From the IMG/VR virus record IMGVR_UViG_3300025666_000591, positions 1 through 53,615 of that record: a stretch of 53,615 nt of DNA; one strand, given 5' to 3'. Under the pieces are notes generated by a model. It worked only from the letters and a program-made list of their open reading frames with translations. It was not told where the DNA came from and ran no database searches. How positions within the stretch are numbered: position 1 is the stretch's first letter; the number at the start of each line of letters is the position of its first letter. Positions 36,168 through 50,907 of this stretch are shown here, piece by piece. This DNA is from a virus. Both the position numbers and the translations under genes were made by a program.

Positions 36168-36195
36168 TTGACATAATCATTTTATCTGCCATAAT
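36168..36195 (+). promoter_or_regulatory. extended -10 promoter
   Basis: TTGACA (36168-36173), 16-bp spacer ending CTGC, CATAAT (36190-36195). This is the same extended arrangement (TGnCATAAT) as the minus-strand promoters beyond 42 kb. Confidence 0.6.
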
Positions 36196-42408: not shown

Positions 42409-42510
42409 ACCAAACACGGAGGGAGTCGAACCCACAAGAGGATAGTTAGGACTGCAATCCGCACCTCTCCTAATCACCACTAATTTGCAGATTAGTTTGA
42501 TCGTGTTGGT
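42409..42510 (-). ncRNA. tRNA-like RNA, possibly degenerate tRNA-Cys
   Basis: The 3' part has a classical T-arm (GGGTTCGACTCCC) and the ends pair as an acceptor-like helix (ACCAACACG with CGTGTTTGGT, one bulge). A GCGGATTGCA segment matches the usual anticodon arm of tRNA-Cys (GCA), but the 3' side of that stem is wrong (TCCTAAC), and an extra perfect hairpin (ACTAAT-CTGCAA-ATTAGT) sits where the D arm should be. About 102 nt, too long for a class I tRNA. A promoter places the RNA start at the acceptor 5' end. It may be a decayed tRNA or a tRNA mimic. Confidence 0.5.
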
Positions 42511-42517
42511 AAGTATC

Positions 42518-42545
42518 AGTATGTCAGAATCTCAACCAAAGTCAA
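42518..42545 (-). promoter_or_regulatory. extended -10 promoter of the tRNA-like RNA
   Basis: Minus strand: TTGACT, 16-bp spacer ending TCTGA, CATACT, with predicted start near 42510. Confidence 0.75.
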
Positions 42546-42733: not shown

Positions 42734-42901
42734 TCAGTACCCTAACCATTCTAACACTTTTTGTGCATTATACTCTTCTTTGTCACCCATGTCTAAAATG
42801 AATTGGTGAATATCTTGGCAACCATGCTTTGAGAGTTCTTCAAACGCTCTTGCTTGGCTAATCATTAAATCTTCGGCTGATTCGTAATATGCTTCACTCA
42901 T
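42734..42901 (-). CDS. small acidic protein
   Basis: A 55-residue protein (MSEAYYESAEDLMISQARAF, ending VLEWLGY). Its ATG overlaps the stop of the GP88-like gene (ATGA), so it is probably co-translated. Not recognised. Confidence 0.6.
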   Translation of the reverse strand: MSEAYYESAEDLMISQARAFEELSKHGCQDIHQFILDMGDKEEYNAQKVLEWLGY

Positions 42902-43641
42902 GAGTCTATCCCTTCTACTACAAATCCTGTTGCGTCTTTCTTTGCCATACCTTTCTCGATCAAGCCAACGACCACACCTTTCTTGTCAAGAAAACGCAAG
43001 TCAGTTTCATCACCATTGACGACCTCAAAACCTTTCCATGTTTTGGGTAATTGATTGCGAAATACAACGGCAACATTGCCACCCATTAAAAGAACCATCT
43101 CACACTTTTTGTCATTATTCTCTGATCGAGAAAAAGTTAAATGATAATTAGAGGGAAACTTTGCCTCGCCCTTAATGAAAGGCTTGTCGAGAAAAGAACA
43201 CATTCTTTTAAATGATTTAGTATAATCATAAAACTTAGTTTGGGGAAACTTATCAAAAATTGTTTGAGGCTTTTCTTCATCAAAAAATACTGACTCCCAC
43301 ATGATGTCGCTTGTAAGATTAGGACGAAAGACAGCTTCCATACTTTTCTTTTGTGCCGACTTAATTGAGGAAGTAATTTCTTTCGATAGTTTTGCGAGAA
43401 AGTCAAATTGCTTTTCAAAGAACAACTTTGTTTTGTTGATGCGTGAATCTTGAACAGATCCCATTTGACCACGACCTGCCGTATTCAAGCAAGACATTGT
43501 GCAACCTTTGGAACGCCATTGGCAAGTTTCGTAGCCCGAAAGATTTGCTGGAGCTAAGTGGATTCCTTTTGTGATGTAACCGAGTTTTTCTCCTTTGAGA
43601 ATTTTTTGATTACCTGATGTGAGAAGTGTTGTTTTAATCAT
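42898..43641 (-). CDS. GP88-like phage protein
   Basis: A 247-residue protein. LTSGNQKILKGEKLGYITKG, then CQWRSKGCTMSCLNTAGRGQ with R/N residues after it, matches the pattern of the phage/plasmid GP88 family (LxxGNxKI...C...CxxxCLxxxGR) as I remember it. The Cys set may bind metal. Function unknown. A leaderless promoter precedes it. Confidence 0.72.
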   Translation of the reverse strand: MIKTTLLTSGNQKILKGEKLGYITKGIHLAPANLSGYETCQWRSKGCTMSCLNTAGRGQMGSVQDSRINKTKLFFEKQFDFLAKLSKEITSSIKSAQKKSMEAVFRPNLTSDIMWESVFFDEEKPQTIFDKFPQTKFYDYTKSFKRMCSFLDKPFIKGEAKFPSNYHLTFSRSENNDKKCEMVLLMGGNVAVVFRNQLPKTWKGFEVVNGDETDLRFLDKKGVVVGLIEKGMAKKDATGFVVEGIDS

Positions 43642-45356: not shown

Positions 45357-45433
45357 TGGTGGACCCGCTCGGGCTTGAACCGAGGACCCTCCGATTATGA
45401 GTCGGACGCTCTAACCAACTGAGCTACGGGTCC
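45357..45433 (-). tRNA. tRNA with CAT anticodon (Met or Ile2)
   Basis: A complete 77-nt cloverleaf: acceptor GGACCCG / CGGGTCC, D-arm GCTCAGTTGGTTAGAGC, anticodon arm CCGACTCATAATCGG, T-arm CTCGGTTCAAGCCCGAG and an encoded CCA end. CAT can be elongator Met or, if modified, Ile2; TTCAAGC in the T-loop is more like Ile2 but is not proof. Confidence 0.95.
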
Positions 45434-48620: not shown

Positions 48621-48915
48621 CTTAACATGAATAATAATAAATAAAATGGTGTGGGGAAGGATTACTGTATACCTTCGACTTTTCGGCGTGAACATCAGTT
48701 CATAGAGTACCTACTTCGCACCACAAACGAGACTTGGAATTGTCTCTAGCTCATCCGATTGGACTCTGCTAATCTACCACAGAAAGTTTGCGTACCTTAG
48801 CTCGCTCACGACAAGCTTGCTCAGTCACCCACAGGAGAAGTATATCTACCTCTCCAAAGTTTTTAAAATGTTAAAGATCGATTATTTATTTTGATTAAGT
48901 TTGTTTCTTAATTAT
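48586..48915 (-). ncRNA. structured non-coding RNA of unknown class
   Basis: Bounded by a consensus promoter (48922-48950) and a strong terminator, with no credible ORF. Perfect local hairpins on the minus strand are GGAGA...TCTCC (48836-48857), GAGAC...GTCTC (near 48740) and TGAAC-TGAT-GTTCA (near 48695). TGTGGG near the 5' part can pair with CCCACA near the 3' part, closing the structure. It is noticeably richer in GC than its surroundings. About 330 nt is close to tmRNA or RNase P RNA size, but the hallmark sequences of both are absent. Confidence 0.75.
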
Positions 48916-50878: not shown

Positions 50879-50907
50879 AGTATGGCAGATTATTTGGCGA
50901 TTGTCAA
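50879..50907 (-). promoter_or_regulatory. extended -10 promoter
   Basis: Minus strand: TTGACA, 17-bp spacer ending TCTGC, CATACT, ATTAAAG, ATG at 50871. Confidence 0.75.

Follow-up and report, generated by a model that had tools for sequence, protein, structure and literature searches.

A tRNA-like RNA behind a phage promoter

The sequence analyzed here (the window) is a virus record of 53,615 bases. On its minus strand a promoter is followed by a tRNA-like structured RNA, designated class A, and then by a second copy of the promoter (Table 1). The first-pass annotation had placed a promoter-driven tRNA-like RNA at this position, and its strand and location are confirmed. The −10 element ends 7 bases before position 42511, so that transcription starting at about the 5′ end of the acceptor is a reasonable interpretation. 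The strict promoter motif occurs seven times in the window and was absent from every one of 20 shuffles. Copies of the recurrent promoter, TTGAC...CTGNCATAMT, are situated at 36168 on the plus strand and at 50907, 48583, 47316, 45241, 42545, and 42378 on the minus strand, and this promoter seems to mark the transcription units of the phage.

The neighbor of the RNA is a gene for a 247-aa protein (42898–43641, minus strand) that resembles proteins of Pelagibacter phages, mycobacterial phages, and others. The phage is provisionally labeled marine on the basis of this likeness and of its neighbors. A series of genes in the same direction lies downstream of the RNA. Prediction of tRNA genes, which had been named as a check on the locus, gave a single ARAGORN call in the window, a tRNA-Met at 45357–45433, and none at 42510–42409. 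A manA RNA (RF01745, 71.4 bits) is located elsewhere in the window at 48646–48855 on the minus strand, and the relatives L005 and L023 have manA also. Stops and single-base indels among the class A relatives are evidence against a shared protein frame.

Table 1. Coordinates of the class A RNA, its promoters and predicted parts in the window, and of RNA modules in related loci.
Feature	Position	Strand	Sequence, conservation or basis
Promoter of the tRNA-like RNA	42545-42518	minus	-35 TTGACT (42545-42540), 16-nt spacer, -10 CATACT (42523-42518)
Class A, 102-nt tRNA-like structured RNA	42510-42409	minus	covariation (11 + 13 sequences), covariance model
P1 5′ strand (acceptor-like helix)	42510-42502	minus	ACC-AA-CACG; hand alignment
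P2 arm: 4-bp D-stem-like helix and hairpin at the D-loop position	42501-42473	minus	alignments
Loop 1, CUGCAA	42490-42485	minus	CTGCAA in 12/13, CTGCGA in L279
GG following the D-stem-like helix	42478-42477	minus	GG in 12/13
P3 arm: 5-bp anticodon-type stem and two further 3-bp helices	42471-42436	minus	AGGAG/CTCTT; alignments
Loop 2, UUGCAG, exact complement of loop 1	42457-42452	minus	TTGCAG in 11/13, TCGCAG in L279, ATGCAG in L278
T-arm, loop TTCGACT, one stem mismatch in the window copy	42435-42419	minus	TTCGACT/TTCGATT (UUCGAYU) in 12/13
P1 3′ strand, bulged	42418-42409	minus	CGTG-T-T-T-GGT; hand alignment
Second promoter copy, serving the next genes; other cassette edge	42378-42351	minus	motif scan, empty-site breakpoints
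Module R2, core UGAACAACGAGGCG...CGCCUACAACC	L209-L277 and L005, L023, L024, L029, L032, L039		adjoins, in almost all cases, the 3′ end of a tRNA-like RNA with expanded anticodon arm
Candidate modules R3, R4	L024:9301-9430, L032, L033, L212, L262, L279; L032:9268, L035:3079		after tRNA-like RNAs

Relatives of the class A RNA

Fifty IMG/VR loci were gathered via the 247-aa neighbor protein. Class A was detected in 11 of these by BLAST followed by a covariance model, with L010 (58.9 bits) and L035 (57.6 bits) seen by the model alone; the window RNA scores 114.2 bits with this model, of which its sequence is a part. Pattern scans added L184 and, when loop 2 was left unconstrained, L278 and L279 also, giving 13 distinct class A sequences with identities of 45–99%. 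When whole records were searched, 15 of 50 had a class A match, the window's own included, with a single copy in each. A broad loop pattern, CTGCAAAT...ATTGCAGT, was left out of the counts. Judged by eye, those among the 22 stretches that matched a stricter loop pattern and the 26 that matched a T-arm pattern which do not have tRNA-like flanks were set aside as chance matches, as were all three matches in a scan of bacterial and archaeal genomes, each of which is devoid of tRNA-like arms. BLAST of the window RNA against named phages matched nothing beyond short segments from the T-arms of ordinary tRNAs. A gene partner shared across the 13 loci was sought and none was identified; as 12 of the 13 lie in the same neighborhood, gene linkage says little.

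Covariation supports a maintained fold

Eleven sequences were aligned with MAFFT without reference to structure, and a fold named by the analyst was counted on them: 94.7% of 450 pair cells were standard, and changes on both sides were evident at 16 of 41 pairs. Four of five measures were reached by none of 500 shuffles, and the fifth, the number of further pair types, by 259 of 500. When partners were slid by one to three columns in the same alignment, pairing fell to only 38–48%. For L050, L184, and L279 the MAFFT alignment puts the 3′ tail out of place, an error repaired by hand alignment. In a model alignment of 13 sequences, to which L010 and L035 were added from outside the model, 94.5% of 531 cells were paired and 26 of 41 pairs displayed both-side changes, values to be read with the lean of this alignment toward the model. 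Reading of the minus strand yielded 28 G-U cells vs. 6 A-C cells, which favors that strand as the RNA.

Comparison of the relatives shows the predicted four-arm fold and the strand of class A, which looks like a working RNA gene rather than a broken tRNA. Folded singly, the window RNA is cloverleaf-like with a z-score of −1.19 that was equaled by 22 of 200 shuffles. Judged from this one sequence the fold is unremarkable, and the case rests on comparison with the relatives.

Architecture of the RNA

The predicted plan of the window RNA is that of a tRNA, comprising an acceptor-like helix, D-stem, anticodon-type stem, and T-arm, with hairpins in the positions of the D-loop and the anticodon loop. 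The acceptor-like end helix (P1) reported at first holds up well: in the hand alignment 9/9 pairs are standard in 11/11 sequences and both-side changes occur at 7/9, whereas the size of the bulge is 0, 1, or 3 nt among relatives. The hairpin described as foreign to tRNA in place of the D-arm is present, but is seated on a 4-bp D-stem-like helix that is followed by GG, by analogy the probable counterpart of G18-G19 in tRNA. An anticodon stem that had been regarded as broken is instead an intact 5-bp helix (AGGAG/CTCTT) with a longer hairpin. The T-arm was termed perfect; its loop is canonical, but the window stem GTGGG/CCCTC includes a T-T mismatch that leaves 4/5 pairs, in contrast to perfect T-stems in, for example, L033, L184, L278, and L279. 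Overall, 93.8% of T-stem cells are paired in the 13-sequence model alignment.

The P2 and P3 arms are near-equal in length among relatives. The linkers between arms in class A are 0–1 nt, unlike positions 8–9 and the variable loop of tRNA, and an L-shape is therefore not assured. No CCA end is encoded in the class A copies, which together with an acceptor-like helix that has a bulge and exceeds 7 bp makes normal maturation or charging doubtful.

Complementary loops

The tips of the two replacement hairpins, CUGCAA and UUGCAG, are exactly complementary, and all six pairs are present in 12 of the 13 sequences. In L279 both loops are altered together, to CUGCGA and UCGCAG, a compensatory double change. 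L278 retains five of the six pairs (CUGCAA with AUGCAG). As four of the six are invariant across the 13 sequences, these positions are uninformative for or against pairing, and the compensatory change that is expected, with complementary loops, of a kissing RNA is seen in one event only, that in L279. From the exact complementarity and this change we infer a kissing contact, and pairing of loop 1 with loop 2, whether within or between molecules, is supported on this comparative basis. The GCA stretch that had been interpreted as a tRNA-Cys-like anticodon is part of loop 2, the complement of loop 1, and the joint change in L279 fits contact between the loops better than decoding. On geometric grounds, in a four-way junction without linkers, stacking of P1 on P2 would bring the loops together. 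By the same reasoning, stacking of P1 on the T-arm, with P2 on P3, would point the loops apart and would favor intermolecular pairing.

The promoter and RNA as an exchangeable cassette

Comparison of loci shows that the promoter and RNA are gained, lost, or replaced as a cassette. In the window type the class A RNA lies directly behind the phage promoter, but in L033 and L279 a leader of ~30 nt intervenes, and in these two loci class A precedes a further candidate RNA module rather than a gene start. The neighbor protein of L005 is 95% identical to that of the window, and a different tRNA-like RNA is located between the same two promoters. In L026 the slot is empty, and the breakpoints relative to L016 fall inside both promoters, as recombination between the promoter repeats would lead one to expect. 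The other tRNA-like RNA, class B, is carried by five of the 50 loci (L005, L023, L024, L032, and L039). It retains the acceptor, D-arm, and T-arm, but its anticodon arm is longer by ~40 bases, and module R2 lies directly 3′ of it. The occurrence of a different tRNA-like RNA in the slot of five loci points to selection for the tRNA-like part. Among the relatives examined the slot contained class A, another tRNA-like RNA, or nothing, and in no case a normal tRNA.

Module R2 and other RNAs of the slot

A scan of IMG/VR for R2 recovered 69 stretches. Among the loci examined, 47 of 52 distinct copies were preceded by a T-arm with acceptor, compared to 2.02 of 52 on average, and never more than 4, for random anchors. 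The tRNA-like parts before R2 measured 97–223 nt in 46 cases and 73 nt, the length of an ordinary tRNA, in L247, although single lengths are rough, the acceptor picked by the script being false for L023 at least. At least one compensatory change was noted at 9 of 16 predicted R2 pairs in 25 aligned copies chosen by the analyst from the 52. R2 produced no match to Rfam in the loci scanned, and does not follow the RNA in the window. Matches to the class A model of 17–21 bits in R2 loci were discarded, most being of ordinary tRNA length.

In 43 distinct tRNA-like parts joined to R2, the pattern AT(6)TA had 38 matches, 24 of which hold a 6-nt palindrome, a count that is inflated by kinship. The palindromes are of four kinds: ACTAGT (12), TCTAGA (8), ACATGT (3), and CCTAGG (1). 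Changes from palindrome to palindrome are taken as evidence of pairing between molecules in one study (PMC12286853), and the palindromic sequences in the R2-joined RNAs suggest pairing of this kind. In L217, L220, and L254 the expanded anticodon arms include two copies of ACTAGT, of which one occupies a hairpin loop and the other lies farther downstream, an arrangement that would suit an H-type pseudoknot.

Further RNAs were observed in these loci. At L247:5356 and L276:3706, R2 lies directly after an ordinary tRNA with the anticodon-loop letters CTGAAAA (Phe-like by eye). A 73-nt tmRNA-like RNA with tRNA-like ends and no tag domain is located at L038:10640-10712 on the minus strand (Rfam tmRNA, 56.5 bits), and the same sequence is present on the minus strand of L048. 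Candidate modules R3 and R4 also occur after tRNA-like RNAs, and the slots thus look like small RNA operons. When one class B RNA with its R2 was used in BLAST, only an R2-like piece was returned, in Tetrasphaera phage TJE1; this sequence (L283:1501-1542) is in an unannotated intergenic region without a recognized tRNA-like part.

A proposed non-decoding tRNA mimic and its alternatives

The best explanation, to which we accord about an even chance, is that class A is the product of an intact gene, a small non-coding RNA on the tRNA plan that would serve as a non-decoding mimic and occupy a host tRNA-handling factor during infection. The acceptor/T-arm half would lead the RNA to be bound and protected as a tRNA, and the rebuilt D and anticodon arms, joined by the loop-loop contact, would block decoding and furnish a new binding surface. 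The factor occupied might be RNase P, tRNase Z, EF-Tu, a modifying enzyme, or a tRNA-directed defence. A decoy for tRNA processing or anticodon nucleases had been suggested previously: since the 7-nt anticodon loop is gone, a decoy relying on it is unlikely, whereas one that acts through the acceptor/T-arm half is possible.

The main rival is oligomerization by loop-loop contacts. Loop 1 would pair with loop 2 of the next molecule to generate dimers, rings, or chains, for which phi29 pRNA and the GOLLD/ROOL cages are parallels. Exact complementarity of the loops is consistent with this arrangement, as are the geometric argument that stacking of P1 on the T-arm would point the loops apart and the palindromes of the R2-joined RNAs. 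However, the near-equal lengths of P2 and P3 suit intramolecular pairing too, and the palindromes belong to a related class and are absent from the window RNA. On balance an oligomer is the less likely reading. Conservation of loop letters beyond the needs of pairing, with four of six pairs invariant in the 13 sequences, might also reflect a trans-acting regulator whose loops base-pair with a transcript of the host or the phage, or with the anticodon loop of a tRNA, but the concerted change in L279 agrees with pairing of loop 1 and loop 2, and we consider such a regulator improbable.

The position of the RNA upstream of genes in the same direction would accommodate a cis-acting leader or riboswitch of those genes. 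This proposal is decidedly improbable given the second promoter between the RNA and the next gene, and the candidate RNA module, in place of a gene start, after the RNA in L033 and L279. A cloverleaf that operates at the DNA level as a recombination or replication site would accord with recombination at the cassette edges, but is most improbable as the breakpoints are in the promoters outside the cloverleaf, G-U cells exceed A-C cells by 28 to 6 on one strand, and the promoter is directed into the element. Finally, a decaying tRNA, as the first-pass annotation proposed, or an intron-bearing tRNA is scarcely credible: the T-arm, acceptor-like helix, and single T-stem mismatch of the window are in keeping with decay, but decay would not give the compensatory changes that maintain the odd arms, both arms and not the anticodon loop alone are rebuilt, and no relative examined has a normal tRNA at the site from which the window copy might differ by point mutations.

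If the mimic is viewed alongside the other RNAs of the slot, the window RNA may be the stand-alone form of an unnamed phage system in which tRNA-scaffold RNAs, many joined directly to R2, retain the elbow and acceptor of tRNA, bear in place of the decoding arm exchangeable domains whose loops pair intra- or intermolecularly, and act as an RNA particle or as a tRNA-like inhibitor of host translation or tRNA machinery. This proposal is tentative and falls short of an even chance. What resembled a broken tRNA thereby becomes a defined RNA family, with a fold open to testing, in a group of uncultured phages. It also points the way to further tRNA-like RNAs of phages, which were missed by ARAGORN and mostly by Rfam in the cases tried. 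If it is true that such RNAs bind tRNA-handling factors, they would represent a new phage route to host translation or to tRNA-directed defences.

Comparison with known RNAs

At the gathering score, no Rfam family was located at the window RNA; with E-values up to 10 only chance matches were obtained, which did not cover the RNA and did not include tRNA. With E-values up to 1, the sole match in L035 was tRNA-Sec, with 18 bits against a family score of 47, and that in L279 was unrelated and outside the class A RNA. By contrast, class B in L024 is matched by the Rfam tRNA model (41.4 bits, with a large insertion), as is the tRNA-like RNA of L029 (43.7 bits). A literature search, mainly of open-access papers, found no description of the class A RNA.

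Like canonical tRNA (RF00005), the window RNA has an acceptor-like helix, a 4-bp D-stem-like helix with GG, a 5-bp anticodon-type stem, and a T-arm with a 5-bp stem and UUCRANY loop, the loop being present in 12/13 sequences and the window copy of the arm having one mismatch. In contrast to tRNA, hairpins with complementary tips substitute for the D-loop and anticodon loop, and there is no variable loop. In place of a 7-bp acceptor with discriminator and CCA there is a 9-bp helix, bulged in most copies and without CCA; in place of a 7-nt anticodon loop, the 5-bp stem bears further helices and a 6-nt loop; and the standard programs (ARAGORN and Rfam with E-values up to 10) do not score the RNA as a tRNA.

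tmRNA and the tRNA-like structures of plant viruses mimic the tRNA half without a normal anticodon arm. The window RNA shares this mimicry, but does not have a tag frame, pseudoknotted acceptor, CCA, or Rfam match to these RNAs; no match to RF00023 was detected in the window RNA and no tag domain is evident. The pRNA of phi29 is a phage RNA with two complementary hairpin loops and no tRNA-like arms. A complementary loop pair is common to both, but in the window RNA six loop pairs are combined with tRNA-like arms.

No Rfam match to GOLLD or ROOL was obtained in the window or in 25 related loci scanned whole. ROOL is several times larger than the window RNA, and neither GOLLD nor ROOL is known to be built on the tRNA plan. 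By the length given in one paper (PMC12286853), GOLLD too is several times larger than the window RNA. The same paper describes GOLLD and ROOL as phage RNAs, which class A is also, of unknown function that are often near tRNA genes and that have kissing loops (PMC12286853). GOLLD and ROOL are the nearest to class A in spirit.
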